20,037 nucleotides of DNA from a virus, in the IMG/VR virus record IMGVR_UViG_3300048804_000201, positions 1-20,037 of that record; one strand, given 5' to 3'. How positions within the stretch are numbered: the first letter of the stretch is position 1; each line of letters opens with the position of its first letter. A program made the position numbers and the translations under genes. Below are positions 1,397 to 19,841 of this stretch, one piece after another. The notes under the pieces are model-generated. The model had not been told where the DNA came from, did no database searches, and was given only the letters and a program-made list of their open reading frames with translations.

Positions 1397-1746
1397 CGGT
1401 GCCGCCTCGTACCCCGCCGCGCGATGTGATGCGGAAGCCGGTGCGCCCGCTCCTCAATCTCGCGACTGTGGTTGTAGATGGCGTCCAGGGACAGGCGGCC
1501 CTCGGACAGCTCGACCAGGGCGGTCGCGCGATCCGGGCGCGGTGGATGCCCGCGAAGCCAGTCGTAGGGAGCGTGGGGAGCAACACTCAGGTCAGGATCA
1601 CGGCCCAGCGCGGCCACGATCCTGGATGCCCCGAAGTCTGCGACCCAACGGCCGAATTCGGTCTCCCAGCGCATGGGGTCTCGGGTAAACACCTGTCCCA
1701 CCCACGCCAAACCGTCCGTGGTATCGGTTGGCGGATCCGGGAACAT
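1393..1746 (-). CDS. Hypothetical phage protein
   Basis: A 117-residue protein of unknown function between the gpJ-like gene and the minor-tail-Z-like gene. It has several Trp residues, a Pro- and Asp-rich N-terminal part and a basic C-terminal tail (HHIARRGTRRHR). There is no signal peptide, membrane segment or recognised motif. It overlaps the next gene by four bases (ATGA), which supports translation within the operon. No good ribosome binding site precedes the ATG at 1746, so a downstream in-frame start such as the Met at residue 25 is possible. Small ORFs in this position are often tail accessory proteins, but that is context only. Confidence 0.55.
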   Translation of the reverse strand: MFPDPPTDTTDGLAWVGQVFTRDPMRWETEFGRWVADFGASRIVAALGRDPDLSVAPHAPYDWLRGHPPRPDRATALVELSEGRLSLDAIYNHSREIEERAHRLPHHIARRGTRRHR

Positions 1747-1779
1747 TCTAGCATGGATTCAGTTGCGGTCAACCCACTG

Positions 1780-5062: not shown

Positions 5063-5075
5063 CGGGATCCCCCTT

Positions 5076-6803
5076 CTAGTTGGTCCGAAGGACCTCAAGG
5101 GCCAACTGTGAAACGCGAGCCGATCCGCGGCCGGTCCGGAGCACCTCGACCGCTGCCTGCGTAACCCGAGCGAACCCGCGACCCGTCCGGAGCACCTCAA
5201 GGGCCTCCTGGGTGACGCGAGCGCGAGGCCCCCAGCCCGGCATCTCGGTCGGGTTTTCAAGGCTGACCTCGCGGATGGGAATGGTCGCTTCGATGACCGC
5301 CGGGTTGTGGCAGACCAGCTCGACCTCGTCATCGGCCAGGCGGCACATGCGCAGGAAGGAGATCAGGGTCGTCTCCTTCGCCCAAGCCGCGGGAGCGTAC
5401 GGAATGATCGTCAGCGTTTCGTAGGAGCCCTCGTTGACCGCCTCCGTCACGACGTGGTAGCTCCACGAGGTTCCCCCGGGCAGGCGGACCGCGAGGGTCC
5501 GGCGCCCGAGGCCGTGGTTGAATAGGCCGTCGGTGTACTTGCAGGCCCGGATCCGGATCTGCCCAGCGTTCGCGGCCGCACTCGTCTCCAAGCGGAGATC
5601 CTGCTGCCAGCTCGGGACGAAGAAGGGCACGGCCGCTCCGCGGCGCGCCTCAAGGAAGCGCAGGAGCTGGATCACCTCGGCCGCGCCGAGGGCGGTCCAG
5701 ACGAAGGGCCGCTCCAGTGCCGGGGCGTCCGACCCCGGATCCATCCAGAGCGGGCCCGTGCGGGACTCCAAGGCTTCCTGTGCCCGGTCAAAGCCGTCTT
5801 CCACCGGCCCCGAGCGGTTCGGCTGGACATCGAGGACCTCGACGCCGAGCCAGCTCGGGACCGCCGGATACGTCCGCTCCACGGCCCCGAAGGTTGGGAT
5901 GTCCACAGTCAGCTGCGTCGCGCTGTTCCCGAGGCTCTCCCAGCTCATCGGCTGCGTGGACTTCAGGTATCCGGGCGCCACCGGATAGACTTCCGTCCCG
6001 GCCGGCCAGGCGTTGACCAGCGGCTCGGCCAGCTCGAGATCGTCCGCATGGATGGCTGCGAGAGTGCGCACTTCGGACGGGCTGTCCTGGTTGAGGAACG
6101 CTGCGCTCCTGCCGAGCCAGAACGTCCCGGCGCCGGGCTCCAGGGGGATCGTGGTCTCTCCGGCGTCGACGGCCGCAGCCGTGCGGCGCACGAAGGGCCA
6201 GAGCGGGATCGCCTGCGCGTTGGGTTGACCGCTGTAGAGGAAGGCGGCCATCGCCTGCGCCTCGACGTCGAAGGAGTTCGTTTCCCAGATCATGGAGCCC
6301 GTGGGATGGAGTCGGAGCTGTCGGCGTTGCTCCTTCGTCGAGCGAGCGGTAAGAACATCCGTCAGCCAGCCGATGCGGAGGCGGACGGGCGTGCCGGCGT
6401 TCGGACGGAATGCGGGCAGAGACACTTCACTCCCCGACAGGGCCTTGATAGAGACTCTGTGCAGGTGCAACCCGAGCTTGAGCCGCTTCACGGGAACCTG
6501 TAGTGCGATCGGCACCGGATCCGCTGACACGCGGCGCATATGGAGGCCAAGAGAGAGGCGAGAAACGGGGACCTTAACGGGAAGAGGCGTCTCCGTCGTC
6601 ACTTTCTTGATGGATAGGCCAAGGCTCAGCCGTTTGACGGGCACCATGACCGGGGAAGTCGTATCCACCAAAACGCGGTGCATACCCAGACCCAGCGAGA
6701 GGCGCTTGACGGGCACCCATACCGCCGGAAGCAAGTCCACCGACACCCGACGCTGGTGAAGACCCAGCGAAAGGCGGGAAACGGGAACCGCTACGTCGCT
6801 CAT
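5076..6803 (-). CDS. Tail tip / distal tail protein with N- and C-terminal tandem repeats
   Basis: A 575-residue protein in three parts. Residues 6-126 are five tandem units of 24-25 residues with the core VPV(S/K)RL(S/K)LGL followed by a basic residue and Val. Residues about 135-525 form the globular part (RLRIGWLTDVL..., LHPTGSMIWETNSFDVEAQA, PFVRRTAAAVDAGE), which resembles tail-tip proteins upstream of BR0599-type hubs in related phages; I do not recognise a precise family. Residues 528-575 are three 17-residue units of the form ARVTQEALEVLRTGRGF. The start at 6803 overlaps the preceding stop as ATGA; the longer frame to 6857 lies inside the neighbour. Repeats at both ends suggest flexible or stackable surface arms. 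A structural tail role is inferred mainly from position. Confidence 0.65.
   Translation of the reverse strand: MSDVAVPVSRLSLGLHQRRVSVDLLPAVWVPVKRLSLGLGMHRVLVDTTSPVMVPVKRLSLGLSIKKVTTETPLPVKVPVSRLSLGLHMRRVSADPVPIALQVPVKRLKLGLHLHRVSIKALSGSEVSLPAFRPNAGTPVRLRIGWLTDVLTARSTKEQRRQLRLHPTGSMIWETNSFDVEAQAMAAFLYSGQPNAQAIPLWPFVRRTAAAVDAGETTIPLEPGAGTFWLGRSAAFLNQDSPSEVRTLAAIHADDLELAEPLVNAWPAGTEVYPVAPGYLKSTQPMSWESLGNSATQLTVDIPTFGAVERTYPAVPSWLGVEVLDVQPNRSGPVEDGFDRAQEALESRTGPLWMDPGSDAPALERPFVWTALGAAEVIQLLRFLEARRGAAVPFFVPSWQQDLRLETSAAANAGQIRIRACKYTDGLFNHGLGRRTLAVRLPGGTSWSYHVVTEAVNEGSYETLTIIPYAPAAWAKETTLISFLRMCRLADDEVELVCHNPAVIEATIPIREVSLENPTEMPGWGPRARVTQEALEVLRTGRGFARVTQAAVEVLRTGRGSARVSQLALEVLRTN
5079..5222 (-). 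repeat. Three tandem 51 bp coding repeats (ARVTQ...EVLRTG units)
   Basis: The last 48 codons of the 575-residue tail protein are three units of 17, 17 and 14 residues: ARVTQEALEVLRTGRGF, ARVTQAAVEVLRTGRGS and ARVSQLALEVLRTN. GTCCGGAGCACCTC on the plus strand recurs in the units with a 51-base period. Short V-T-Q...V-E-V-L repeats of this kind occur in other phage tail proteins, probably as linkers. Confidence 0.9.
6426..6788 (-). repeat. Five tandem 72-75 bp coding repeats (VPV-RL-LGL units)
   Basis: Within the 575-residue tail protein, five consecutive units of 24, 24, 24, 25 and 24 residues share VPV(S/K)RL(S/K)LGL at their start. The codons for the core are diverged (for example GTCAAGCGCCTC versus GTCAAACGGCTG). 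The protein pattern is therefore kept by selection and does not reflect recent duplication. Confidence 0.9.
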
Positions 6804-7267
6804 GCCGCCTCTTCGGACAACTCCAGGATGATCTCGGAACCGCTGTTTTCGTCCCATTGGAGCGTGTAAGAACCGCCGGAGGAGGGGTAGGCGGAACCGA
6901 TCTCAATCGAGAACATGAGCTTCCGCGTGCCGTCAGTTCCTCCGTCATGGTAGACGATCGCATGAGAAAACTCGCCCGCATCCAGACCGGGCCAGACAGG
7001 GTAGGGCGATATCCACTGGATAGGTTCGATCCCAGTAAAGGGGTCTGGCAGCACTGTGCCGTGGTACGTAGGAATCAGGATCCCTCCGGCGGTGTAGCCA
7101 GTCCCAGACGCCTCATACGACCGCACCTGTGTGATATAGATGTGCAGGGGGTCGTGCGAGTAGGCCCTGACCAGCATGACTCGGAACGTTCCGCTATCCA
7201 GGGAGTACTCGCCCTTCAGGAGGCTCATGCGAAAATACCCGTACGCTTTGACGTCACCCGCTGGCAT
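6800..7267 (-). CDS. Small tail protein directly downstream of the tape measure
   Basis: A 155-residue protein with a strong ribosome binding site (AGGAGG, seven bases before the ATG) that overlaps the tape-measure stop codon. The N-terminal pattern, a short strand followed by SLLKGEYSLDSGTFRVMLV, is typical of small prophage tail or fibre-associated proteins in which an L-x-G-x-x-x-L-x-S segment precedes a strand naming the expressed analyte-like region. The rest is predicted mainly beta, rich in Gly, Tyr and Ser, with an acidic end. No catalytic motif is seen. It overlaps the next gene by four bases. A minor tail or appendage role is inferred from position between tape measure and tip genes. 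Confidence 0.6.
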   Translation of the reverse strand: MPAGDVKAYGYFRMSLLKGEYSLDSGTFRVMLVRAYSHDPLHIYITQVRSYEASGTGYTAGGILIPTYHGTVLPDPFTGIEPIQWISPYPVWPGLDAGEFSHAIVYHDGGTDGTRKLMFSIEIGSAYPSSGGSYTLQWDENSGSEIILELSEEAA

Positions 7268-7279
7268 CGTGTCTTCCTC

Positions 7280-9913
7280 CTATCCGTTCAGAACCTGTTG
7301 CAAGGCCCGCCGGTTTCTACTAACCGACTCCACCAGGACACGCTGTCCGGCTGGGGTTGAAAACGCCTTGAGGACCAGCCCCTCGTCGAGGCCGATGAGG
7401 AGGCTGCCGCCCTTCTGCTGCTGACCGCCCGCGGTCCCGCCCTGAGCGACCAGGCCCCCGCCGGCGAACCGTTGCACGCTTGGCGAGATCGGCTTGATCG
7501 CCGCCGTGCCCCACTGGTTGAACGCGTGCAGGAACTCGAGGGCGCCCGGCTGCTGCACCGATGCCGCGCGCACGACGAACTCGCCGTTGGAGAGGCGGAC
7601 CGGGCGGCCAGCCTCGGTGACGGCCGCGAGGCTGTCGCTGGTGCCGGTGCCGGGGCCGCGCAGCACGCCGCCCATGGAGAAGCGGGGGAGGCTGCCGATA
7701 CGGCCCCCGGCCGCAGCGTAGGCGCCTGGGTCGACGTACTCCGTTCCGCCACCGCCACCTCCACCCCCGCCCCCGAGCCCACCGAAGAGCCCCGAGAGCC
7801 CCTTGACGATCTGGGCAGCCATCATTTCGGAGACGATCTGGCGAATGCTCTGGATCACGGACCGGGCCATGTCCTTGACCGCTTCCCCGAAGCTCTCTGC
7901 CTCCGTGATGCCCCGCGCGAAGAAGTCCGTGAGCGCCTGGATCCCAGACTGTTCGATCCCGTCCCGGAGCACTGTCATCTGGTTCGCGGCGCGAGCGCCG
8001 GCCGCTCCGATCGCGTCTACCGAGGCGGCGAACTCCTGGGCCTGGCGGATCTTCTCGTCGTTGTTCGTTGCCTCGGCCGAGGCGAGGTAGGCCGCGGCGA
8101 GCGCCCGGAGCGCCACGAGCCGATCCTGCTCCAGAGCCAGCAACGCCTGCTCTCCCTGAAGCTGAGTGAGCTGACCGGACGCGACCTGGTTCTCGATCGC
8201 CTGCCGGTCGAGGCTGAGGTTCGCCATCGCGGCCTCGGCTTGCTTCTGGGCCTCGCCGAGGTCCGCTGCCGCGGTGAGCGCGGCCCGGTAGGCATCCGTG
8301 AGCCGAGCCCGGGCCTCTGGTGGCACGCCAGCCTGCCTCAGCGCCGCATGGTAAGACGCGACCTCTTCGCCGATCTCCTGCATGGCGACCGCATGCGTGC
8401 GGCCCTGGGCGTCGAAGATCTTCTTGACGAAGCCGAGCCGCTTTTCGCCGAGGTCCTCGACGGCCTTCTTCTCGTCCGCTGTCAGCCCCAAGAGCTGAGA
8501 CTCCTGATCAAGGCGGATCTTATTGATCTGCGCATCGATCACCTTCGCATCGGCCACAGCCTTGATCTGGTCGGGTTCGTCTGCGAGCAAAGCCTTTCTG
8601 GCCTGAAGCGAAGCGACCTCCGCATCGGCTTCCTGCTTGACGAGCTGGCGGCGCGCTGCGAAGTAGTCCCGAGCGCTGATGAGCCCTTCGTCATAGCTGC
8701 GCTTTTCGGCGTCGAGGCGGGCCTTGAGTCGGGCCTTCGTGAGGGTCAGCTCGGCGTCAGCGACCGAGCGGAGGGCCGCCGCGTTCCGCTGGGCAAGCGC
8801 AGCAGGGTCCTCTTCCGTTTCGGGCGCCCCGGCTCTCGGCTTCGCGGGGTCGCCAGCCGTGGTGGCAAGCCTGTCTCGCTCCGCGATCCGAGTCCGCAGC
8901 GCAGCCATCTCGGCTTCGGAAGCGTCGCCACCAGCCTTCATTTCGGCGAGGGCGCGCTTGAAGTCACCCCTGATGACCGCACTCATCGCCCGGCCTGTCG
9001 AGACCAAGGCAATGGCGACTTGGGCCAAGAGAGTTGCCGTGATGTCAAAGGCATCGGCGACCATAGCCACGATGAACTTTAGGATCCCGCCGACAGCTTG
9101 GCCGAAGTCCCGCCAGGCATCCTTGGACTGGGCGAGACCCCCACTGACGATCGAAAGTGACTGGGAGACACTCGGTGCCAACCCGGTGGCGAACTGGATC
9201 CCGAGCGCCTGCGACTGGAGCTTCAGGAGCTGGAAATCGTCGTTCATCTTCTGAGTCGCGGCAACCATCTCGCCGCTCAGAAGCACACCCAACTCTCGCG
9301 CCCGTTCGATGAGGTTCCCCAGACCCTCTTCGGCCAGGTCGTTCATGAGGGGGATGAGCTGCGCTCCGGCTTTCCCGAAAATATCGAGGGCGGATTTCGT
9401 CTTTCGGGCGCCGTCACCGACCTTCGCCATACGTCCCGAGATCAGGTCGAAGGCTTGGACGGCATCCTTCCCCTTGAAGTCCTTGGCCGCCAGGCCAAGG
9501 TTGCGGAAGGTAGCCTGAGCGTCTGGTGAGCCTTCGGCAAGCAATGCCAGCTGCTTGTTCATCCGGATCAGGCCGATCGAGAGTTGCTCGGTGCTGACGT
9601 CGGCCGTCGCGGCAGCGAGATTCAGGGCAGAGAGGTTCTCAACGCTGGCGCCGAGCCGCTGGCTGACCTTCCCGACCTGGTCGGCGGCCTCGGATGCCTG
9701 CTTGATGAAGCCGATGAAGGAGCCGACACCCAGCGCAATGCCGAGGCCTCCGAGGAGGTTCGCCGTGCTGCCCAGAACCGAGTTCAGCCCGAGGAAGGAC
9801 TTGCTCCCGGCCTGGCCGGTCTTGTTGCCCTCCGCCTGCACCTTCTTCAGAGCGGAAACGACCTCGGCCACGCCCTCAGCCGAGAGGCGGATGCGTACGT
9901 CAGGCGTCGTCAC
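7280..9913 (-). CDS. Tail tape measure protein
   Basis: An 877-residue protein that sets tail length and is packed inside the tail tube. It opens with VRIRLSAEGVAEVVSALKKV, followed by a Gly/Leu-rich hydrophobic stretch (residues about 45-70) and the EAADQVGKVSQRLGASVENL motif common in tape measure proteins. Further hydrophobic segments lie near residues 275-310, then long coiled-coil regions rich in Ala, Glu, Lys and Gln (about 340-660), a run of ten Gly near 711-722, and a C-terminal GEFVVRAASVQ motif shared with lambda-like tape measures. It starts with GTG at 9913, 14 bases inside the chaperone frame, so translation is coupled. At roughly 0.15 nm per residue it predicts a tail near 130 nm. 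Confidence 0.95.
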   Translation of the reverse strand: MTTPDVRIRLSAEGVAEVVSALKKVQAEGNKTGQAGSKSFLGLNSVLGSTANLLGGLGIALGVGSFIGFIKQASEAADQVGKVSQRLGASVENLSALNLAAATADVSTEQLSIGLIRMNKQLALLAEGSPDAQATFRNLGLAAKDFKGKDAVQAFDLISGRMAKVGDGARKTKSALDIFGKAGAQLIPLMNDLAEEGLGNLIERARELGVLLSGEMVAATQKMNDDFQLLKLQSQALGIQFATGLAPSVSQSLSIVSGGLAQSKDAWRDFGQAVGGILKFIVAMVADAFDITATLLAQVAIALVSTGRAMSAVIRGDFKRALAEMKAGGDASEAEMAALRTRIAERDRLATTAGDPAKPRAGAPETEEDPAALAQRNAAALRSVADAELTLTKARLKARLDAEKRSYDEGLISARDYFAARRQLVKQEADAEVASLQARKALLADEPDQIKAVADAKVIDAQINKIRLDQESQLLGLTADEKKAVEDLGEKRLGFVKKIFDAQGRTHAVAMQEIGEEVASYHAALRQAGVPPEARARLTDAYRAALTAAADLGEAQKQAEAAMANLSLDRQAIENQVASGQLTQLQGEQALLALEQDRLVALRALAAAYLASAEATNNDEKIRQAQEFAASVDAIGAAGARAANQMTVLRDGIEQSGIQALTDFFARGITEAESFGEAVKDMARSVIQSIRQIVSEMMAAQIVKGLSGLFGGLGGGGGGGGGGTEYVDPGAYAAAGGRIGSLPRFSMGGVLRGPGTGTSDSLAAVTEAGRPVRLSNGEFVVRAASVQQPGALEFLHAFNQWGTAAIKPISPSVQRFAGGGLVAQGGTAGGQQQKGGSLLIGLDEGLVLKAFSTPAGQRVLVESVSRNRRALQQVLNG

Positions 9914-10588
9914 GGGTCACGTCGCGGAGAATGGCCGGGAGAGAGGGGGGACGCGATTCGCCGCCCTCGACGTAGGGGGCCAGGGTCGCCCAGACGGTGA
10001 CCGCGTGGCGATAGTCGTCGAGAGCCTGGTACCGCATCCGACTCCTATAGGCGTGCAGCGTTTCTCGAAGGGGCCACCGCAGGATGCGCTGCGCGCGCTC
10101 GTGGTCGTGTTCGGCGAGCTCCCTTACGAGGCCAGCCCAGCGGCCATAGCGACTGGGGGCTCGCTCAGCTCGGGCTGGCCGCCCGGATCCCGGCGAGAAG
10201 ATCTCGGGGAAGTCCAGATGGAGGCCAGCCCACATTGAAAAAAATCGGTGAGCAGCGACAGAATGAGCGACCGGATGGAGGCCTTGTCGCCCGCTCCCCG
10301 GAGCTGGCCGATGTAGGCGGCGGTCTTCTGAGCTTCAGCCGGCGTCCAGCCATCAGAACCGATCTCTTCCGGGACGATGAGGCAGCCGAGCAGTTCGAGC
10401 ATCGTGCCGCTTTGGATCGTCGCGTTGAGAATCCGCTCCCCGAACGCCTCAGGGCTTTCGCCCTCGCCCATGTCGAACTGCAGGCCCGCGCGGCCGGCCA
10501 GGCCGTGAAAGTGGAGGTCGTGCTCGACCGTGCTGTCCGTGATCGAGAGGAACGGCCGGCCGCCCAGGATGATCCTGTCTTCTCCCAT
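9900..10588 (-). CDS. Tail assembly chaperone, -1 frameshifted long form (gpGT analogue)
   Basis: Ribosomes slipping back one base on TTTTTTT (10244-10238) leave the 154-residue frame after Phe117 and enter the frame that reads Ser, Met-Trp-Ala-Gly and on to a TGA at 9900. This gives a fusion of about 229 residues: 117 shared, then 112 unique. The unique part is rich in Arg, Glu and His (ELAEHDHERAQRILRWPLRE) and resembles the small helical T domain of gpGT proteins, which recruits the tail tube subunit. The end overlaps the tape-measure GTG by 14 bases. Feature coordinates span the whole fusion. The frame change at 10238-10244 is inferred, not observed as protein. Confidence 0.75.
10124..10588 (-). 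CDS. Tail assembly chaperone, short form (gpG analogue)
   Basis: A 154-residue protein between the tail tube gene and the tape measure gene, the position of lambda gpG and its analogues, which bind the tape measure protein during tail assembly and are absent from the virion. It is mixed alpha/beta with an acidic stretch (FDMGEGESPEAFGERIL). It ends with a helix (IRSLILSLLTDFF) at which the frameshift site lies; the unshifted frame adds 37 more residues. The ATG at 10588 overlaps the tube-protein stop as TGATG. Sequence similarity to named chaperones is weak. The call rests on position plus the overlapping second frame with a slippery T7 run. Confidence 0.8.
   Translation of the reverse strand: MGEDRIILGGRPFLSITDSTVEHDLHFHGLAGRAGLQFDMGEGESPEAFGERILNATIQSGTMLELLGCLIVPEEIGSDGWTPAEAQKTAAYIGQLRGAGDKASIRSLILSLLTDFFQCGLASIWTSPRSSRRDPGGQPELSEPPVAMAAGLAS
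10238..10244 (-). promoter_or_regulatory. Programmed -1 ribosomal frameshift site (T7)
   Basis: On the minus strand the zero frame reads GAT TTT TTT CAA, giving the classic X-XXY-YYZ heptamer T TTT TTT. After a -1 slip the next codons are TCA ATG TGG, exactly in frame with the downstream 111-codon frame that ends at 9900. Two Phe tRNAs can re-pair perfectly. This is the expected device for making gpG and gpGT-type tail chaperones. Confidence 0.8.
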
Positions 10589-11373
10589 CAGGAGCCCGTC
10601 CGATAGATCGTCTCTCCGTAGGGGGCCAGCGGATGGGCGACGCTGTCATCCTCGGCATACCCGTCGAGGGTGAATTCGGCGTAGTTGTCGGAAATGAAGT
10701 CGATCCCTCCCGAGGCGCGCAGTGTCACGCGCCAGAGGGTGTGCTCCATCTGCGGCCCGCGCTGGTTGTCGGGGATGAAGAGGATGCTGCCCCGCTTCAC
10801 GCCCTCGGCCCCGATCTGTACCTTCGCGTAGCCCGGAGCCGCGATTGCGGCGTAGCTGTAGTCGATGAGAAGGTCGGTCCCCTCCGCGATGGTTCCACCC
10901 GGAACGATGTAGACCATGCCGGTGTCCGCGTCGACCGTGTAGTCCGTGGCCACGGTATAGGTGGTTGGCGTGGCATCTTTCACCACCACGCTACTGACCT
11001 TGCGGTGGGCCAGCCGGTAGGAGCGATCCTGGATGACGTCCGGGACCGACTCAGCTACGGCGGTGCTCGCAGACTGGGTGATCGCCGTACCGAGGGTGCC
11101 GAAGAGCGCCAGACACAGATTTTCCTTGTTGAAGTGATCGAGGGTCATCTGGAGCGCGAGTTCCGATTTCAACACGTCGGAGGCCATGAGGCGCGCCTGG
11201 GCCGTCGTGCTGCCGTACTTCTTGATCTCCTCCTGTGTCGGGGTGAAAGTTATCTTGGGAGCGTTGCCCAGGAAGAGGTAGGCCCCGGTCGGCACACCGA
11301 GGGCGCTGTAGGGAGCGAAATGGACCTTGCCACGGCCGAGTAGGTTCTTGGTGCCGTCAATTACGTTTCCCAT
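10588..11373 (-). CDS. Major tail tube protein
   Basis: A 261-residue protein that polymerises into the tail tube. It is predicted mainly beta and sits directly upstream of the chaperone pair, between the tail terminator and the tape measure region, the usual place for the tube gene. Typical features are the N-terminal GKVHFAPYSALGVPTGAYLFLGNAPKI strands (residues about 13-40), a KITFTPTQEEIKKYGSTTAQ segment, a central beta region with TPTTYTVATDYTV, and a C-terminal DGYAEDDSVAHPLAPYG end. Two adjacent ATGs follow AGGAGG; the second, at 11373 with a five-base spacing, is preferred. It ends in a TGATG overlap with the chaperone gene. Family membership is inferred from architecture and synteny. 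Confidence 0.8.
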   Translation of the reverse strand: MGNVIDGTKNLLGRGKVHFAPYSALGVPTGAYLFLGNAPKITFTPTQEEIKKYGSTTAQARLMASDVLKSELALQMTLDHFNKENLCLALFGTLGTAITQSASTAVAESVPDVIQDRSYRLAHRKVSSVVVKDATPTTYTVATDYTVDADTGMVYIVPGGTIAEGTDLLIDYSYAAIAAPGYAKVQIGAEGVKRGSILFIPDNQRGPQMEHTLWRVTLRASGGIDFISDNYAEFTLDGYAEDDSVAHPLAPYGETIYRTGS

Positions 11374-11387
11374 CATCTCCTCCTGAT

Positions 11388-11858
11388 TTAGGTGACCTGC
11401 TCCGCGTCGTCGACGCGGGACTGATACTCGTATCGCCACGTCATCGTGGCCCGGCAGAACGAGGTCTCCCCCGCCTGGTATTCGAACTTGGTGCCGGTCT
11501 CTCGTGCTGGCCGGTTGGCCAGGCCTCCGAATGTTCCAGCCGCTCCCAATGCCTTCGTCGTCCAGGCGATGATTGGATCCGCGGCCTTGTCCGGCTCCCC
11601 GCCGGCGCCGGCCTTGGTCAAGACCTCAGTGGCGAGAACGAGAGTTCGCAGGACGATCGCCCCGTCTGCCGCATGGACAGGCCTCTCAGGGTGCATGGGG
11701 TCGACCACTTCCGTAGACTGATAGACGGTGAAGGCCGGGAGCTGGTCGGGATTCGGGGTGTCGATGCGCGTGCGCACCGGAAGCGGCACGCCGGCCGGGC
11801 GACCGGTGGTCAGAGCCGCGAAGGCCGCGGCGACGATCTGCTCCCGGACGGTGCTCAC
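11388..11858 (-). CDS. Tail terminator protein (gpU-like)
   Basis: A 156-residue protein with the pattern of phage tail terminator or completion proteins, which cap the tube and help join it to the head. The N-terminal helix is MSTVREQIVAAAFAAL, followed by strands around VRTRIDTPNPDQLPAFTVYQ. The middle has a long helix (DKAADPIIAWTTKALG) and the end has an FCRATMTWRYEYQS strand typical of this family. The start is GTG at 11858, overlapping the previous stop as GTGA. Position between the head-tail joining gene and the tube gene supports the call. Confidence 0.75.
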   Translation of the reverse strand: MSTVREQIVAAAFAALTTGRPAGVPLPVRTRIDTPNPDQLPAFTVYQSTEVVDPMHPERPVHAADGAIVLRTLVLATEVLTKAGAGGEPDKAADPIIAWTTKALGAAGTFGGLANRPARETGTKFEYQAGETSFCRATMTWRYEYQSRVDDAEQVT

Positions 11859-12163
11859 GGGTCCCTCAGGGCGATCCGGGTCATGGCCCCGTCCCCGTAG
11901 GGCGTAGCCTCGCGGACGACCCGGGCGACGCCGTCGACGGTGATGGCGGAGCCGGAGGCCAGCCCGGGCAGGGCACCCGTCTGGACGTGCACCCCCTCAT
12001 CCATGGAGATGACACCGGGCATCTCGCCGCCGAACACCTCGGCCGCTTGGCGATCGTCCAGACCGGTCGTCTTGGCCGCTCCGAGGATCACCTCGACCGC
12101 TCCACCTGCGGCTGCCAGATCCGCCAGCATGGCCGCGATGTCGGATTCGCCGAGGAAGGTCAC
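11855..12163 (-). CDS. Head-tail joining protein (gpFII-like)
   Basis: A 102-residue protein resembling small phage head-tail joining or stopper proteins. The N-terminus has short helices (SDIAAMLADLAAAGG). The C-terminal half carries the family's typical G-x-x-I-x-V-D-G motif followed by V-R-E and a final L-R-D strand (SAITVDGVARVVREATPYGD). These proteins form a ring beneath the portal complex where the tail attaches. The start is GTG at 12163, overlapping the previous stop as GTGA, and the stop overlaps the tail terminator start in the same way. Confidence 0.7.
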   Translation of the reverse strand: MTFLGESDIAAMLADLAAAGGAVEVILGAAKTTGLDDRQAAEVFGGEMPGVISMDEGVHVQTGALPGLASGSAITVDGVARVVREATPYGDGAMTRIALRDP

Positions 12164-12660
12164 TTCGTGGGTCCCTTGAGCACGCCGATATCCAGGTTGA
12201 AGATCGCGGCGGTCGAGTCGGCGTTAGTGATGTAGAGAACCAGCGTTCGGAACGTGGGAAGTGGGTAGAGGGTGACGTCGAACGCCTTCTGCTTGGCGTT
12301 GAGGATGCCCCCCGCAGCGAAAGCCGAGTGGCGGTACGTTTTCGCCGTTCGGCCGAGCCAGACCTCACACTTCACCGAGTCGACGTTGGCCGTCGACGTC
12401 CGGCTCCCGACGAGGATGCGCCAGGTCGGGACGCTGCTGATGAGCGCGTAGGGCAGTTCCCTCGGAAGGGTGATCGTGACGACGGCCGTGTCCACCCCCA
12501 GGGCCGTGAGGCTTGGGGTGATGTATTCATACTGATCAATGGTCCCGCTTTCGTAGTGGCCGAGCAGAGTAGGGATCTTCTGCGTGGCCTGCGCGGGGGG
12601 CACCATCAAGGCCAGAACCGAGAGAGACAGGAGCACCGGCAACCAGGACCGCTTGCGCAT
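12160..12660 (-). CDS. Protein with N-terminal signal peptide in the head-tail operon
   Basis: A 166-residue protein of unknown function. The ATG at 12660 has a GGAGG motif eight bases upstream. The N-terminus MRKRSWLPVLLSLSVLALMV followed by PPAQA-TQ is a textbook Sec signal peptide: basic n-region, Leu/Val core and an A-x-A cleavage site near residue 25. The mature part (about 140 residues) is predicted beta, with Thr-rich strands, a single Cys and a C-terminal FNLDIGVLKGPTK. No lipobox is seen. Its ends overlap the operon, so it is probably co-translated with head-tail genes. An exported protein is unusual in this position. The mature strands resemble small phage structural proteins such as the neighbouring 132-residue one, so the signal could also have been added to a virion protein. 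Confidence 0.7.
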   Translation of the reverse strand: MRKRSWLPVLLSLSVLALMVPPAQATQKIPTLLGHYESGTIDQYEYITPSLTALGVDTAVVTITLPRELPYALISSVPTWRILVGSRTSTANVDSVKCEVWLGRTAKTYRHSAFAAGGILNAKQKAFDVTLYPLPTFRTLVLYITNADSTAAIFNLDIGVLKGPTK

Positions 12661-12716
12661 CTTGCATTCCTCCTCCGGCCGCACCCGCGACCGGGATCCT
12701 CATGAGAGAACCGCCC

Positions 12717-13115
12717 TTACGACGCCTTCTTGATCCCGACGAACCCTGCGGAGAAGTCGAAGTGCGCACCGGAACCGGCGATCGTCCCGATCACGCGGAT
12801 ATAGCGCTTGAGATCGGAGACGTTGACCTTGAGCGTCTGGACTCCGGCGGTGCCGGCGACGTCGGTGACCTCGACGAATGCCGCGGAAGTGACGTCGACG
12901 AAATCCCCCGTCGTCGTGGTGGCCGAGTGCTGCAGTTTCACGTTGAGGGTCGGGGTCGTGCCGGCGGTCGCGGCTGCTCCGTTCAGGACGATCAGGGCAA
13001 CCCCTTCGTAGTCCTGGACATCGAGGGCGGTACCGGTCAGCGTTGTGGTGCGGTCGATGGGGGGTGCAAGGAGCAAGTGATAGGCGTTGGCCAGGGCGTT
13101 GAGAATGTGGGACAC
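12717..13115 (-). CDS. Small head structural protein (decoration-like)
   Basis: A 132-residue, Thr/Ala/Val-rich protein with predicted beta strands. It belongs by pattern to the small phage structural proteins that begin with a short helix plus IDRT-type segment, then strands such as TLNVKLQHSATTTTGDFVDV and VSDLKRYIRVIGTIAG. It lies between the capsid gene and the head-tail joining genes, where decoration or minor capsid proteins are often encoded. The start is GTG at 13115 with AGGAGG six bases upstream. There is no signal peptide or Cys. The decoration role is inferred; a virion structural role is more secure. Confidence 0.6.
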   Translation of the reverse strand: MSHILNALANAYHLLLAPPIDRTTTLTGTALDVQDYEGVALIVLNGAAATAGTTPTLNVKLQHSATTTTGDFVDVTSAAFVEVTDVAGTAGVQTLKVNVSDLKRYIRVIGTIAGSGAHFDFSAGFVGIKKAS

Positions 13116-13118
13116 GGT

Positions 13119-13436
13119 CTACCTCCTGCCGGCGTGGGGCCGGCCTCTGGGCGCCCGGTGGGGCGCTTGGACTTCGGGGTCGCGGGTGTTGACGACCGGA
13201 TCCCCATGGGTGACAACGGTGGCGGGCACGGGCCCGGAGTCGGTGGGGACCTCCGGGCCCGCTTCCTGGGGGTTCGGGACGATGCGGGCGTAGCCGGTCC
13301 GGACCTTCTTCAGGGCCTCCGCGATCGAGAGATCCCGAGGAGCTTCCAGGATGTCGCCGGGGTAGACGTCGTTGTCGGCGCCGCCCAGACAGTGGCCGCT
13401 CGTGATCTCGATCGTGACCTTGGCCTGGTCTGTCAT
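13119..13436 (-). CDS. Small hypothetical head-region protein
   Basis: A 105-residue protein just downstream of the capsid gene. The N-terminal half (VTIEITSGHCLGGADNDVYPGDILEAP, then a helix and GYARIVPNP) resembles short phage proteins with a G-D-x-x-E-x-P pattern and an A-x-x-L helix, found after capsid genes and of unknown role. The C-terminal 45 residues are Pro- and Arg-rich and probably disordered. A GGGAG motif lies upstream of the ATG at 13436. The stop is three bases before the next gene's GTG. No function can be assigned with confidence. Confidence 0.6.
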   Translation of the reverse strand: MTDQAKVTIEITSGHCLGGADNDVYPGDILEAPRDLSIAEALKKVRTGYARIVPNPQEAGPEVPTDSGPVPATVVTHGDPVVNTRDPEVQAPHRAPRGRPHAGRR

Positions 13437-13461: not shown

Positions 13462-15465
13462 TTAGGCGATGACCGCTCCGGTGCCCTTCACGAAGCTGTC
13501 GCCCCGCAGGACGGCTGTGTCGGCCATGGCGTAGCTCGTGATGACGATCTGGCCGTAGGCCGCCTTGGTGACGACGTCGACCACGATCTCGAGCTCATTG
13601 CCCCACATCCCGACCGCGAGGTCGTTCCAGTTGCCGAAGATGAAGCCGTGCTTCGTCGCCGAGGCCTCGAGCGTCTTGCTGATCTGGTTCGTGGCGTAGG
13701 CCGTGAAGCCCCGGAGCTTGCCCTCGCGGAAGGTTCCCTCCCAGAGCATCGCCGCCTGGCCCGAGACCACCTGGGTCCGCATGAGCACGGCGGCCATCAG
13801 CGGGGTCGTCATCCATGCCTCGGCCCCGAGATCCGCGTTTTTGTCCGCGAGCATGCCCATCATGGTCGTCACGTCGGTCAGGTCCGGGACGCCGTCCACG
13901 CCCCAGGTCTGGACCCCCGCGGCGGAGTAGATCCCAACGGGCTGCCGGTCCGTGCCGGTACCGTGGATAGCTCCGAGGTCGATGGCCAGTCCCGTCCCGA
14001 CCGAGAGGTCGCTCCGGATGTCGGCCTCGGCATCGATCGACGACATGACGAGCAACTGTCGAGGGATTTGGACAGTCCCGATCAGCGTCTTGGGCGAGAG
14101 CGTGACGTAGCCGTAGCCAGGCTCCGAAGCGGTAGCGCCGGACGCCGGATTCTCCGCCATCCATTCGACGGTCGGGGCGGAGGTCTTCTTGTTGAAGAGC
14201 ACGACGCCGGTGAGACCCGGATAGAACTTGGCACCAGCCGCAAGGACCATCGACCGGTTGCGCAGCAGATCGATCATGTCGGGCATGGTCGTCTGCCCGA
14301 CGAGGGTGGCGCCGCCGGTCGGCTGGTTGGTCCCCAGGGTGCGCACCAGCCGCTCCCGCTCCTCTTCGGTACGCAACCGAAGGGGAACCAGGATTCCGCC
14401 ATGTTCCGACCCACCGCGCTGCCTGAAGCGCTCCTGGTGGATCTCACCCTCGATGCCGTCGTACTGGCTCCGCTTGCCTTCCTTGATCTCGATCTGCATC
14501 TGAATGGCGCGCTGGACCGAGTAGCGGCCCCGATCCTTGGCCGGCATCCCCTCCAGGGACTCGGCCGCGGGAGAGGCATGGCCGCGCGTGGCGATCTTCT
14601 TCAGGATCTCCCGGCCGACCTGGTCCGGGGTCAGGCCGCTGCGGATCCAGATCGGAGCCTGGTCGGCCAGGTTGTGGCGCGCCGCCATCTCGATGATGTC
14701 GGCCGCATCGGTGGCGAGATTGCGGACCTCGGCATGCGCCGGCGCCGGCGTCGCTGGCGCTGCGGGCTGGGCCGATCCTGGGGTGCCCTGGGCGGGCGCG
14801 GGCTCCGTGGTCATGGTTCGTTCTCCTTCCGTGGCGGGTTCTTCGATCCGGAACTCAACAAACTCCTCGCCGGCCGAGGCGCGCGATTCGATCTCCGCGC
14901 GGCCAATGCCAACCTTCTTGAAATCAGCGGGGATGGGCTCGGTGGATACCTCCATCGGCATCCACGAGCAGCGATAGGTCCTGATGCCTGTCTTCTTGTC
15001 CGTCGAGGCGAGCACCATGCCGGTGACTCTGTAGCCAACGGAGACGGTCTTCAGATGGCCGTTGCGGACGAGGCTTTCCTGCCGATGCGCATCATCGTTT
15101 TTGTCAGACAGATCGAAGTAAGCAACCCCGCGACCGCGTTTGGTCTTCGTGTCGACTGTGATGTCTCGCACCGATCCCAATTGCACGAGTCGCTGATGAC
15201 TTTGCAGGAGGGGCAGAACCCCTCCACTCGCCTCCGCTCGCGCGAGATCGCAGTCACCCGGTTCGTGGGAAAGGATCTCGTCATATTCGCCGTCCCAATC
15301 CCACCGCCTGACGGGGGCCTCGCTGGAGAAGGCGAGCGGGTAGGAGGAGATTTCGCCACCGGTTCCATCTGCGCGCTGCCCGATTTCGATCGGACATTCG
15401 CGGTATTGAATCGCCGGCACCTTCACGGTGCGGGTCCTGGCGGAAACGGCTTCTGGTGTGCTCAT
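13462..15465 (-). CDS. Fused HK97-type prohead protease and major capsid protein
   Basis: A 667-residue fusion. Residues about 15-150 are an HK97-family prohead protease (peptidase U35/S78), with the likely catalytic His near residue 90 (LLQSHQRLVQLG) and Ser near 142 (LKTVSVGYRV). A low-complexity Ala/Pro linker spans about 217-250. The remainder is an HK97-fold major capsid protein with TLIGTVQIPRQLLVMS, then AIHGTGTDRQPVGIY, and a C-terminal ending in FVKGTGAVIA. The protease cleaves the capsid scaffold region during maturation. The ATG at 15465 is used; a TTG two codons upstream gives the longer form. No clear ribosome binding site precedes it. An internal ATG at 14814 with AAGGAG could make the capsid part alone. 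Confidence 0.9.
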   Translation of the reverse strand: MSTPEAVSARTRTVKVPAIQYRECPIEIGQRADGTGGEISSYPLAFSSEAPVRRWDWDGEYDEILSHEPGDCDLARAEASGGVLPLLQSHQRLVQLGSVRDITVDTKTKRGRGVAYFDLSDKNDDAHRQESLVRNGHLKTVSVGYRVTGMVLASTDKKTGIRTYRCSWMPMEVSTEPIPADFKKVGIGRAEIESRASAGEEFVEFRIEEPATEGERTMTTEPAPAQGTPGSAQPAAPATPAPAHAEVRNLATDAADIIEMAARHNLADQAPIWIRSGLTPDQVGREILKKIATRGHASPAAESLEGMPAKDRGRYSVQRAIQMQIEIKEGKRSQYDGIEGEIHQERFRQRGGSEHGGILVPLRLRTEEERERLVRTLGTNQPTGGATLVGQTTMPDMIDLLRNRSMVLAAGAKFYPGLTGVVLFNKKTSAPTVEWMAENPASGATASEPGYGYVTLSPKTLIGTVQIPRQLLVMSSIDAEADIRSDLSVGTGLAIDLGAIHGTGTDRQPVGIYSAAGVQTWGVDGVPDLTDVTTMMGMLADKNADLGAEAWMTTPLMAAVLMRTQVVSGQAAMLWEGTFREGKLRGFTAYATNQISKTLEASATKHGFIFGNWNDLAVGMWGNELEIVVDVVTKAAYGQIVITSYAMADTAVLRGDSFVKGTGAVIA
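14812..14830 (-). promoter_or_regulatory. Internal ribosome binding site and start for capsid-only product
   Basis: On the minus strand AAGGAG followed by AACGAACC leads to ATG at 14814, in frame and at the border between the protease domain and the capsid part. Initiation here would give a 450-residue capsid protein without protease. This parallels the internal starts lambda-like phages use inside protease genes to make a scaffold, and would supply excess capsid subunits. Confidence 0.5.
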
Positions 15466-15498
15466 GGACAAGATTGATGGCGGATACCTTCCGGGGCG

Positions 15499-15523
15499 CC
15501 AAGTCCGATGTCATCGGACTTGG
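15499..15523. repeat. 12-bp-arm palindrome between divergent head operons
   Basis: CCAAGTCCGATG and CATCGGACTTGG form a perfect 12-bp inverted repeat around a single T at 15511. With mismatches at 15498/15524 and 15493/15529 the symmetry extends to about 15491-15531. It lies between the minus-strand capsid operon and the plus-strand portal operon. No clear -10/-35 boxes are visible nearby. It may be an operator for both operons or the scar of a recombination event. Confidence 0.85.
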
Positions 15524-15555
15524 AGCCCGGGGCCGGGGATGCCAGCTTGGGGCCC

Positions 15556-16113
15556 ATGACACAGGAACTCACCGCTCTTCCCGAGGAATTCTCCGCCGGC
15601 ACCACCGTCCGGTATCGCAAGCGGTTCACCGACTACCCGGCCAGCGCGGGGTGGACGCTGACTCTCTACCTGGGAGGGCCCAGCGCCCGGGCGAAGACGG
15701 CAGCGGCGGACGAAGACGACTTCGTTGTCACCCTGGCCGCCTCGGACACCGGTGGGGACTTTGTCCCGGGGTCCTATCAGGCGGTGGAACGGGTCTCCAA
15801 CGAGGCCGGAGATGTGTATCAGGTCGACGCTCGGAGGACGAACATCACGCCGAACCTGGCGGAAGCCACGGATGGCAGCTCCCAAGACTGGCTGGAACGC
15901 GCGATTCCCGTCCTGCGGGCCCACATCGAGGGGCGGCTGCCGGCGGGTCTGGAGTCCTACCAGGTCGCCGGCAGGGTCGTTTCGAAGATGCCGATCAAGG
16001 ATGCCGACGACCTCCTGTGCCGCTACGAATCCCGACTCGCCCGCCTTCGCAACCCGGACGCCACCATCCGGCCGATCCTGATGTCGTTCACCGAACCGGG
16101 GTTCAGCCAATGA
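15556..16113 (+). CDS. Portal-adjacent head protein with Ig-like N-terminal domain
   Basis: A 185-residue protein encoded just before the portal, overlapping it as ATGA. Residues about 10-105 look like an Ig-type beta domain (FSAGTTVRYRKRFTDYPAS, WTLTLYLGG, GSYQAVERVSNEAGDVYQVD), similar in layout to the protein at 19461. Residues about 115-185 are helical (LERAIPVLRAHIEGRL, then DADDLLCRYESRLARLR) and end with a strand, a pattern seen in small proteins next to lambda-type portals. The head-completion gene gpW occupies this position in lambda, but no sequence match to gpW is claimed. ATG 15556 is preferred; an in-frame ATG at 15508 lies inside the palindrome. Neither has a good ribosome binding site. 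Confidence 0.6.
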   Translation: MTQELTALPEEFSAGTTVRYRKRFTDYPASAGWTLTLYLGGPSARAKTAAADEDDFVVTLAASDTGGDFVPGSYQAVERVSNEAGDVYQVDARRTNITPNLAEATDGSSQDWLERAIPVLRAHIEGRLPAGLESYQVAGRVVSKMPIKDADDLLCRYESRLARLRNPDATIRPILMSFTEPGFSQ

Positions 16114-17657
16114 GCCACAGGAACACCCCGCTCCTCCCGCGTCTGGGCCGGGCCTTCCGCGCCGGCTGGCGGGAACTGACCGGCGCGCGGGGCGCCTTCG
16201 ACGGCGCCAGCACGCACCGCCTGCTCATGGACTGGATCGCACAGGCGCGGTCGGCCGACAGCGAGATCAAGGGCGACATCCGGATGCTGCGCGCCCGGGC
16301 GCGGCAGCTCGCCCGCAATGACGCCTACTCGGGGCGCTTCTTCCGCCTCCTGCAGAACAACGTCATCGGGCCCATGGGGATCAGGCTGCAAGCCCAGGTC
16401 ACGACCGCCTCCGGGGACCTGGACGAGGACGTCAACGACCGGATCGAAACGGCATGGGAAGCCTGGTCGGCCGCTCCGGTGACGATCGATGGCAAACTCA
16501 ACCTGCGGCGCCTGGAAAACCTGCTCGTCAAGACCTGGGGTTGCGACGGGGAAGCCCTCGTCCGCATCTGGAAGGGGTTCGCCGGCAACCCCTTCGGCAT
16601 CGGTTTGCAGGTCCTCGACGCCGACCTGCTCGATGAGACCTACAACCGACAGCGCCAGGGCACCCAGAACGAGATCCGGATGGGGGTGGAGATCGACGCC
16701 GTCGGCCGCCCGGTCGGCTACTGGTTCTGGTCCGCCAGCACCATCGCCGGACAGGACTCCCTGCGCGAGCGCTACTTCGTCCCCGCCGATGAGCTGATCC
16801 ACCTCTACCGGCAGGACCGGGCGAACCAGACGCGGGGCGTGACCTGGCTCCACTCGATCATGGTCCCGGCCCACATGCTCAAGGCGTACGAGGAAACCGA
16901 GGCGGTCGCGGCCCGGATCGGAGCTTCCTCCGGCTTTGCCCTCGTGAAGCGGCCGGATTCGGAGGGGGCGGACCTGGCGACGGGGAAGGCTCCGGCCCAG
17001 CTGGAAATGAACCCGGGCATGGGGTTGATCGTTCCGAACGGCTATGACATCGAGACCCTGAGGGCCGAGCATCCGACGACCCAACTCGCCGCCTTCGTCA
17101 AGCAGATGCTGCGGCGGTTTGCCAGCGGCGTCAGCGTCTTCTACAACGCCTTGGCCAGCGATGGCGAGGCCGTCACCTATTCCACGATGCGGAGCTTCGC
17201 CCTGATCGAGCGCGATGATTGGCGCTCCATCCAGAGTGACTTCATCGACATCTGGCGCCGGCCGCTCTTCCCCATCTGGCTCGACATGGCCCTCCTCTCC
17301 GGGATGCTGGTCCTACCGACCCGGAATCCAGCCCGGTACATGGCGGTGCGGCACCGGCCCAGGGGCTGGCAGTGGGTGGATCCGGAGAAGGAGGCGAACG
17401 GGGCGGTGGTCGCGATCGAGAACGGCCTCGGCACCCGCACCGGCTTCCTGGCGGAGAAGGGCGAGGACCTCGAAGACGTGTTCGTGACGCTGGCGAGGGA
17501 GAAGAAGCTGGCAGAGAAGTATGGCATTGAGATCTCTGGAGGCTCCCGAACCTCCGTTGAAAAGCCCGGAGACGGTCGGCAGCCGGATGAGCAAAAGCCC
17601 GGCTCGAACGGCGACGGGAACAAGTCCGCTGCGGTGTTGAGTCGACTCGGGATCTAA
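16110..17657 (+). CDS. Phage portal protein, lambda gpB family
   Basis: A 515-residue portal protein, close in size to lambda gpB (533). Portals form the dodecameric ring at one capsid vertex through which DNA enters and leaves. Family features include the N-terminal RMLRARARQLARNDAYSGRF helix, NVIGPMGIRLQ, the wing segment WGCDGEALVRIWKGF, LDADLLDE, ADELIHLYRQDRANQTRGVT, and a C-terminal part with ASDGEAVTYSTMRSFALIERDDW. The last 45 residues are Gly/Pro/Lys-rich and probably disordered. A longer upstream in-frame extension is rejected because it runs over the preceding gene. The start overlaps that gene as ATGA. It is encoded on the opposite strand from the capsid, against the usual order. 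Confidence 0.93.
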   Translation: MSHRNTPLLPRLGRAFRAGWRELTGARGAFDGASTHRLLMDWIAQARSADSEIKGDIRMLRARARQLARNDAYSGRFFRLLQNNVIGPMGIRLQAQVTTASGDLDEDVNDRIETAWEAWSAAPVTIDGKLNLRRLENLLVKTWGCDGEALVRIWKGFAGNPFGIGLQVLDADLLDETYNRQRQGTQNEIRMGVEIDAVGRPVGYWFWSASTIAGQDSLRERYFVPADELIHLYRQDRANQTRGVTWLHSIMVPAHMLKAYEETEAVAARIGASSGFALVKRPDSEGADLATGKAPAQLEMNPGMGLIVPNGYDIETLRAEHPTTQLAAFVKQMLRRFASGVSVFYNALASDGEAVTYSTMRSFALIERDDWRSIQSDFIDIWRRPLFPIWLDMALLSGMLVLPTRNPARYMAVRHRPRGWQWVDPEKEANGAVVAIENGLGTRTGFLAEKGEDLEDVFVTLAREKKLAEKYGIEISGGSRTSVEKPGDGRQPDEQKPGSNGDGNKSAAVLSRLGI

Positions 17658-17684
17658 CCCCGTTGCACGGAAAGGAAGAAGGCC

Positions 17685-18107
17685 ATGAGCGCACTGTCTG
17701 ACTATCAGGAGGCCAAGTACCTGGATCACACCTACAACGGTGTAGCCTTCACGCCCCCCTCCGAGATCTACCTCGCGCTCTACACCGCCGATCCCACGGA
17801 TGCGAACGCCGGGACCGAAGTCTCGGTCGGATCCTACGGGCGGAAGCGCATCTATCCCTATGGCGGGAGCACCCCCGCCTTCGCCCTGGCCGTGACCGAC
17901 GGGATCGGGAAGATGGTGACGAATGCCGACGAGATCGTCTTCGTGACAGCCACCGCTCCGTGGGGAACGATCACGCACTTCGGCCTGAAAGACGCGGCGA
18001 GCTCCGGCAACCTCCTCCATCATGGCGCGCTCGATGAGCCCCAGGCCGTCGGCACCGGTGGTCAATTCAAGATTGCGGCGGGAGCGTTGAAACTCCGCAT
18101 GGAGTAG
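17685..18107 (+). CDS. Short phage tail-fibre-family protein
   Basis: A 140-residue protein that follows the portal by 27 bases, with GGAAAGGAAGAAGG upstream of its ATG. It matches the short tail-fibre or tail-associated family found in many actinobacterial and proteobacterial prophages: MSALSDYQEAKYLDHTYN, then AFTPPSEIYLALYTADPTDA, a GTEVSVGSYGRKRI segment, and the WGTITHFGLKDAASSGNLLHHG strand. The fold is predicted mainly beta. A fibre or appendage role in host contact is inferred from the family; precise function is not known. It begins the fibre-like part of the plus-strand cluster. Confidence 0.75.
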   Translation: MSALSDYQEAKYLDHTYNGVAFTPPSEIYLALYTADPTDANAGTEVSVGSYGRKRIYPYGGSTPAFALAVTDGIGKMVTNADEIVFVTATAPWGTITHFGLKDAASSGNLLHHGALDEPQAVGTGGQFKIAAGALKLRME

Positions 18108-18196: not shown

Positions 18197-19480
18197 GTGT
18201 CCACCCACGTTCAGACATTCGGGGCCCTGCCGGGGACCAGCGGGTGCATTGAGCACACCCTTTCGCCAAGCGTCTACACGGCCTACACGGGCCTTGCTGC
18301 TTGTCGGGTTTTCGCCAAGAAGACTACCCCCACCAAAGCCACGTTCGCATTCTTCCAGTTCGATGCGTCATCAGCACCGATCCCTGACAATGCGACGATC
18401 ACCGGGGTTGAGTTCTTTCAGTTTCTGTCTGCCACGCAACCCGCGGGGTCCCCCGAACTGCGCATCACGCTTTATGACTTCGGACAGATCATCGGGGCCG
18501 CCCTGAACGGAACCGCTGCGGAATTCGGCGGTGGCGACTTCGTCGAGGCCACAACGCGAGCTGACCTTCCGAGCAATGTCTGGTTGGACCTGCTGGACGG
18601 GTGGGGACAGGAGGACAAGGACGCCTACCTCTACCTCATCAGCAGAACCGGCACTACCGATGTCCGAATCCGAGATGGCAGTATCCAGGGCGACGGCGAC
18701 AGCGAGTGGGGCATCAACTTCAACGGGACCAAAGAGTCGGAATACTGCAAGCTGCGGATCACCTACACCCTTCCTGGCGCCACCGCGACCGGAAGCGGGA
18801 CGGCGAGCGCTTCGGCCACCGTCGCTGCTGCGGGGAGCGCCACCGCTACCGGAAGGGGAACCAGCCAGGCTCCGGCGACGGTCGGATCCGTAGGCTCTTC
18901 CACCGCCACCGGGCGAGGTACGGCGCAAGCGACGGCATCGACCTCCTCCGCAGGTTCCGCCACGTCGACGGGACGCGGGACCGCGACGGCCGAGGCCTCG
19001 GTTACCGGCATCAGCTCGGTAACCGCTACGGGACGCGGAACAAGCAGCCTGGCCGCGACCGCCGACGCTCTTGGATCGGCCACTTTGACGGGGATCGGAA
19101 CGGCTGAGGCCTCCGGCACCGTCACGAGCACGGCCTGGGCATCCGCCACGGCAACAGGGCTCGGAACGGCCTCCTGCAGCGCCGAGGTCGAGCAAGCAAC
19201 CGCATCAGCTACCGCGACCGGACGCGGCTGGGCGAGTTGCCACGCTCGAGTCGAGCCCCCCACGCCGATGGCCCGCCACTTCGCCCGGCGCTCCGTCCGC
19301 TCCGCGCATTTCGCCAGCCGCTCCGTCTCCGCCGTCCACCGGGCAACGAGATCCGTAGCGGCCGTTCATGCCGCGACCCGCTCCGTATCCACGACGCACC
19401 ACGCGACGTGCTCCTGCAAGCCGGCCAACACCGCAACCCGCGGGTCCAGGAGGATCACCGATGTCTGCACTATCGACTGA
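18197..19480 (+). CDS. Repeat-rich virion fibre-like protein
   Basis: A 427-residue protein starting with GTG at 18197. Residues about 1-192 form a beta-sandwich-like domain (ATFAFFQFDASSAPIPDNATI, ELRITLYDFGQ, WLDLLDGWGQEDKDAYLYLIS), resembling DNRLRE-type or carbohydrate-binding folds. Residues 194-353 are eight units of about 20 residues with core ATATGRGTA, and 361-420 are six 10-residue units based on H-x-A-T-R-S-V. The end overlaps the next gene by 20 bases. Neighbours are a short fibre protein and an Ig-like protein. The repeats suggest an extended shaft or flexible linker and the N-terminal domain a binding head. Virion location is inferred from context. Confidence 0.65.
   Translation: MSTHVQTFGALPGTSGCIEHTLSPSVYTAYTGLAACRVFAKKTTPTKATFAFFQFDASSAPIPDNATITGVEFFQFLSATQPAGSPELRITLYDFGQIIGAALNGTAAEFGGGDFVEATTRADLPSNVWLDLLDGWGQEDKDAYLYLISRTGTTDVRIRDGSIQGDGDSEWGINFNGTKESEYCKLRITYTLPGATATGSGTASASATVAAAGSATATGRGTSQAPATVGSVGSSTATGRGTAQATASTSSAGSATSTGRGTATAEASVTGISSVTATGRGTSSLAATADALGSATLTGIGTAEASGTVTSTAWASATATGLGTASCSAEVEQATASATATGRGWASCHARVEPPTPMARHFARRSVRSAHFASRSVSAVHRATRSVAAVHAATRSVSTTHHATCSCKPANTATRGSRRITDVCTID
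18776..19255 (+). repeat. Eight degenerate 60-bp coding repeats (ATATGRGTA units)
   Basis: Residues 194-353 of the 427-residue protein form eight units of about 20 residues (five of exactly 20, then 22, 21 and 16), each with (A/S)TATG(R/S/L/I)GT followed by Ala/Ser/Thr-rich sequence. At DNA level GCCACCGCTACCGG-like blocks recur about every 60 bases. Confidence 0.9.
19277..19456 (+). repeat. Six 30-bp coding repeats (H-x-A-T-R-S-V decapeptides)
   Basis: The C-terminal end of the same protein has six 10-residue units: HFARRSVRSA, HFASRSVSAV, HRATRSVAAV, HAATRSVSTT, HHATCSCKPA and NTATRGSRRI. The last two have drifted and carry the protein's late Cys residues. The units are strongly basic. Confidence 0.9.
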
Positions 19481-19841
19481 GATCACGGGGTTCGTTGTCG
19501 GGGATGACCTGGAGATCCGCCGCACCGTCACGGACCTGCCTGCGGCCGTCGCGAAGGCCTGGCTGACGATCAAGCGCCTCCCCAGCGAACCGGATGCCGA
19601 CGCGAAGGTGCTCAAGGCGATCGCGGTGACGGACCTCCCGGGCACCGGGCAGATCGTCACGGCCGGGGGCGTGGGAACGGACGGAGACGTGCGCTTCGAC
19701 CTCGTGCCTGCAGACACGCTCGCCCTCGGTATCGGGCGCTGGGTCTACGACATCCAGATCGGGGTCGCCGGAGGAAAGGTTTACACCATCGAGAAGGGCA
19801 CGCTGCAACTCACGATGGACGTCACGAAAGCAACCAGCTGA
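19461..19841 (+). CDS. Small Ig-like phage protein (baseplate/fibre type)
   Basis: A 126-residue protein with AGGAGG seven bases before its ATG. The whole chain fits one Ig-type beta domain: FVVGDDLEIRRTVTDLPAA, AWLTIKRLPSEPDA, GDVRFDLVPADTLALGIG, RWVYDIQIGVAGGKVYTIE and a final TLQLTMDV strand. The layout is like the N-terminal domain of baseplate upper proteins and also like residues 10-105 of the protein at 15556, suggesting paralogy. It probably attaches fibres or acts as a small virion surface protein. The start lies within the end of the repeat-rich gene. Confidence 0.6.
   Translation: MSALSTEITGFVVGDDLEIRRTVTDLPAAVAKAWLTIKRLPSEPDADAKVLKAIAVTDLPGTGQIVTAGGVGTDGDVRFDLVPADTLALGIGRWVYDIQIGVAGGKVYTIEKGTLQLTMDVTKATS

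Follow-up and report, generated by a model that had tools for sequence, protein, structure and literature searches.

The window, as we call the whole stretch of DNA analyzed here, is an entire IMG/VR contig, linear and 20,037 bp long. Its genes form two operons that run away from each other from a short intergenic region (Table 1). The leftward operon opens with a protease-capsid fusion whose product matches Pfam Phage_capsid (PF05065, 3.6e-30) and, over its full length, phrog_617 (5e-77), as found for an HK97-fold major capsid with a prohead protease; the Peptidase_S78 part gives a weak match (0.007) that lies under the cut-off. The remaining genes of this operon keep the same order in relatives. 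Within it, positions 12160-12684 encode a protein with a signal-peptide-like N terminus and no match in PHROGs. In the rightward operon, the stop codon of the head-tail-joining gene overlaps the start codon of the portal gene (ATGA), and the portal is of the lambda family. The Gp80-like protein, whose gene comes after the portal gene in several relatives, carries the Pfam name podophage GP4 fibre I protein and is classed by PHROGs as a head protein. The repetitive fibre-like protein matched no family in Pfam or PHROGs. For the small conserved protein, the listed open reading frame is 19368-19841, with homology starting only at residue 32. No large terminase of family PF05876 was found in the window.

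Table 1. Features of the window, with strand and supporting matches
Feature	Position	Strand	Basis or remark
Rest of leftward operon: head completion, tail terminator, major tail, tape measure, tail tip	686..13436	-	PHROGs
Protease-capsid fusion gene, first of leftward head/tail operon	13462..15465	-	Phage_capsid, phrog_617
Divergent intergenic region, 90 bp	15466..15555		same place in 26 related contigs
Palindrome GGGCGCCAAGTCCGATG-T-CATCGGACTTGGAGCCC, odd-centred	15494..15528		axis 15511, 45 nt before head-tail-joining ATG
Head-tail-joining gene, first of rightward operon	15556..16113	+	phrog_5774 3.2e-23
Portal gene, lambda family	16110..17657	+	Phage_portal_2 (PF05136) 2.2e-80, phrog_21 4.7e-92
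Gp80-like protein	17685..18107	+	PF23140 1.4e-39, phrog_240 1.8e-25
Repetitive fibre-like protein, unknown family	18197..19480	+	homologues at same place in relatives
Small conserved protein	19461..19841	+	phrog_1084 3e-7

The start codons on both sides of the intergenic region bear on its length. The protease-capsid gene starts at the ATG at 15465, and an extended reading frame would begin at the TTG at 15471. Shine-Dalgarno pairing at the capsid start is unusually poor (below -4 kcal/mol in 8% of loci versus 32% of random positions), a hint, and only a hint, of a leaderless capsid mRNA. On the other side, the listed head-tail-joining frame begins at the ATG at 15508. This codon lies inside the palindrome, and in several relatives stop codons interrupt the extended frame; a start at 15556 is therefore more likely. 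With these starts, we confirmed the claim of a sequence-only reading of this DNA that the portal and capsid genes diverge across fewer than 100 bases. The interval marked by that reading spans the gap plus the head-tail-joining gene. Across 17600-17750 there is no strand change, and the gene after the portal is co-directional with it.

Is the divergent order peculiar to one contig, or is it shared by a lineage? Relatives were collected by portal and capsid searches of viral and bacterial genome contigs, plus a scan for the palindrome. The same divergent junction was present in 26 of 26 other contigs (18 from IMG/VR and 8 from metagenome-assembled genomes [MAGs]; different samples, some pairs being nearly identical); their portal and capsid proteins are 43 to 67% identical to those of the window. 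The gap between the capsid gene and the head-tail-joining/portal pair measures about 75 to 120 bp in these contigs. The sequence-only reading had named this outcome, divergence in all close relatives, as the sign of an ordinary lineage trait, and that is what the 26 contigs indicate. A remote sister, L084 (32 to 36% identical), has the same polarity as the window; its capsid operon opens with three extra open frames, and the conserved genes lie 3.2 kb apart. Two of the L084 frames between the head-tail-joining and capsid genes (3918-4622 and 4622-6562) look secreted. Among more distant relatives, 34 loci yielded both genes, and all 34 have portal and capsid co-directional.

In both the portal and the capsid tree, a single branch separates the two arrangements (support, 98/86 and 100/100, respectively; in the portal tree, L006 is labelled divergent although its capsid falls off the contig). 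With one change of arrangement per tree, the divergence is an old lineage trait, and the co-directional state of the outgroups gives the direction of the change, from co-directional to divergent. In the outgroup G006 (portal 44% identical), TerS, TerL, head-tail-joining, and portal genes all lie on one strand. Within the lineage, the terminase of G004 (the genome of L006) converges on the portal operon and has the orientation of the tail genes; that of G016 and of G017 is found past the tail genes and points the same way as the capsid gene. As the terminase keeps the capsid/tail orientation, the part that turned is the head-tail-joining/portal end together with the downstream fibre and lysis genes. 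We infer that the divergent order is best read as one ancestral inversion of this end. Of the origins offered by the sequence-only reading, inversion thus stands, as an ancient event, and an assembly chimera or a recent mosaic join falls away, since 26 other contigs have the same junction.

No phage record in INPHARED belongs to this lineage (best portal match, 37% identical), and our literature search found no description of it or of its arrangement. The MAG bins that hold lineage contigs are Krumholzibacteriota, Eiseniibacteriota, Verrucomicrobia, Planctomycetota, and Fibrobacter; these bins alone suggest the hosts, and the spread of phyla may partly reflect binning errors. The shared junction also frees a set of metagenomic contigs of the suspicion of chimerism.

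Several relatives carry further genes around the late region. Two prophage-like contigs from bacterial bins have a tripartite efflux operon (OEP, a CusB/HlyD-type protein, and an AcrB-family pump) between the tail and terminase genes (L140:13739-19174, which is G016:C249:43739-49174, and the matching block of G017:C162, about 12-19 kb), followed by genes that by eye are P-II-like and CDF-like; the late region of these phages thus apparently carries cargo for the efflux of metals or drugs. A fusion of ParB_N with an N6/N4 DNA methylase lies just before TerS at L141:1853-3349, with homologues at the same place in G015 and G017. By eye, restriction-modification and other defence-like genes directly follow the lysis genes in several relatives (G027, 17-26 kb [L147/L148]; L106:1384-3840; L005:14787-17308; L095:5729-12639).

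The gap itself holds a conserved element. Counted from the start codon of the head-tail-joining gene, the axis of the palindrome lies at -45 in 26 of the 28 loci, window included. L084 (9 of 13 pairs), whose head-tail-joining protein is 36% identical, is one of them; L115 has a weak palindrome with its axis at -44, and no clear palindrome was seen before the head-tail-joining gene of L116. A MAFFT alignment slid the palindromes of L083 and L084 out of register, and for this reason symmetry was tested ungapped from the start codon: complementary pairs filled 90% of cells at the -45 axis versus 12 to 42% when 29 other axes were tested. Arm sequences fall into several unrelated types: most loci have CCAATCTAAAT, the window has CCAAGTCCGAT, L083 has CCATTGCACAA, and L101 has GTCGAGTC. 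The conserved element takes the form CCAATCTAAAT-N3-ATTTAGATTGG or that of another palindrome. Compared across loci, the sequence of the palindrome has been replaced several times with its symmetry kept. A scan of 2.9 million viral contigs found the common pattern only at this junction, and in the three long contigs checked (33 to 55 kb) it is the sole perfect dyad with 11-bp arms. The distance from the axis to the capsid start is mostly 40 nt but ranges from 33 to 74 nt; given this variation, the palindrome belongs primarily with the portal operon.

Two simple accounts of the element were rejected. The -45 spacing is not a frame effect of an N-terminal extension of the head-tail-joining protein, as in-frame stops occur in L003, L083, L095, L098, and others, and the element is not an intrinsic terminator, as the hairpin has no adjoining T-run. 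Rfam returned no known RNA family for the palindrome, and by eye no sigma-70-like -10/-35 pair is evident in the gap. In the co-directional relatives, a palindrome before the head-tail-joining gene was looked for by eye only; L008:9062-9211 has a different one, TGCAAGATCGATATATACCGATCTTGCA, between TerL and the head-tail-joining gene.

What could such a junction represent? An assembly chimera or a recent mosaic join of two phages would account for the unusual gene order and for a palindrome at the joint, as in some fold-back artefacts, but contigs from different samples, at the protein identities given above, share the identical arrangement, and the trees give it one origin; we see practically no chance that this explanation is correct. 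It is also very improbable that the portal block remains invertible, flipping by recombination at the palindrome. Some recombinases do use palindromic sites, and inspection by eye showed serine-recombinase-like genes in these contigs, but the long contigs hold no second copy of the site, and the opposite orientation is absent from all 26 related contigs.

The remaining alternatives concern the palindrome alone. As a DNA-handling site for packaging, partition, or replication, it would lie between the operons only secondarily. The single copy per genome and the ParB_N-methylase fusion encoded immediately upstream of TerS in G016 (and, by homology, in G015) are consistent with such a role; however, a fixed 45-nt spacing to a gene start would not be expected, and contigs run through the palindrome rather than ending there, which makes this role decidedly unlikely. 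Alternatively, the palindrome could act in RNA, as a leader hairpin that controls translation or stability of the head-tail-joining mRNA and perhaps of the capsid mRNA. The stems are near perfect (RNA fold z-score of -3.2 in the window), the spacing to the start codon is exact, and the symmetry survives sequence replacement. Nevertheless, G-T accounts for only 2 of the 12 cells that depart from Watson-Crick pairing, a mismatch in the subgroup L003 and L106-L109 stays fixed while both half-sites change, and the transcript would need to start beyond the palindrome, inside the leader of the neighbouring operon. We consider the hairpin unlikely, although it deserves some weight. The symmetry at fixed spacing, the few G-T pairs, and the changes at one and the same position in both half-sites of this subgroup fit a dimeric DNA-binding regulator better.

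The explanation that we favor, and hold to be probable, is an ancestral inversion that left two divergent late operons, with the palindrome as a regulator site for the portal operon and probably for the capsid operon too. In the common ancestor of this uncultured lambda-portal/HK97-capsid lineage, the head-tail-joining/portal end would have been inverted relative to the capsid, tail, and terminase genes, so that the late genes became two operons, one for capsid and tail and the other, in the opposite direction, for head-tail joining, portal, and fibre (and lysis). With its axis 45 nt before the first start codon of the portal operon, the palindrome most likely binds a putative dimeric regulator, probably phage encoded, that would switch this operon on or repress it. 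The same regulator probably also acts in the opposite direction, on the capsid operon, whose start is about 40 nt away; the variable distance to this start makes the sharing uncertain. Under separate promoters, the abundant capsid protein and the 12-copy portal would each be made at a level of its own. One point against this explanation is that general late activators do not usually have just one site per genome. The divergent promoter region predicted by the sequence-only reading gains support from a conserved palindrome at a fixed distance. The replacement of the palindrome's sequence with its symmetry kept may mean repeated turnover of the late regulator, and the element at -45 offers a clear marker for finding the late regulator of this phage lineage.

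How does this arrangement compare with known head-gene orders? Homologous portals, 34 to 44% identical, occur in L008, L012, L024, Roseobacter phage CRP-811, and Synechococcus phage S-CBS3, and all of these except L008 also have a homologous protease-capsid fusion (29 to 32%). L008, L012, and L024 have a head-tail-joining homologue just before the portal gene. Unlike in the window, these genes share one strand in all five, in the order head-tail joining, portal, capsid. The view that portal, protease, and capsid are widely kept on one strand therefore holds for lambda-portal relatives outside the clade but not for phage P2, whose operons diverge. Neither the window nor its 26 relatives have co-directional portal and capsid genes; co-directionality is not a strict criterion for phages with a lambda portal and an HK97-fold capsid. 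In this lineage the lambda-portal head-gene order was broken once, and the new order was then kept through large sequence divergence.

Divergent portal and capsid operons are an already known solution, because P2 splits its head genes. There, the portal operon PP (P, Q) and the scaffold-protease/capsid operon PO (O, N, M, L ...) diverge under Ogr activation, with one annotated activator site (3057-3087) between transcription starts at 3016 and 3127; in a P2-like phage, both promoter elements lie at the same coordinates in opposite directions (PMC3931495). The window lineage likewise has its portal and capsid operons diverging from one gap. It differs in that the P2 portal travels with the large terminase, whereas here the portal travels with a head-tail-joining gene and the terminase keeps the capsid orientation. 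The proteins differ as well, the portal being of the lambda family and the capsid Phage_capsid (PF05065) rather than of the P2 Q and N families. The P2 activator site is TGT-N12-ACA, present at four late promoters; the site of the window lineage is a near-perfect palindrome of 25 to 35 bp in one copy, and TGT-N12-ACA is not the shared core of the conserved element in the lineage gaps. The region in which a regulator such as an Ogr-type zinc activator would be encoded lies outside the window. The known solution is thus reached here by a lambda-portal lineage, with another placement of the terminase and a site other than that of P2. The lineage may thus represent an independent P2-like split of the head genes around one palindromic control site, with its sequence replaced and its symmetry and 45-nt spacing kept, a reading for which we see the chances as evenly balanced.
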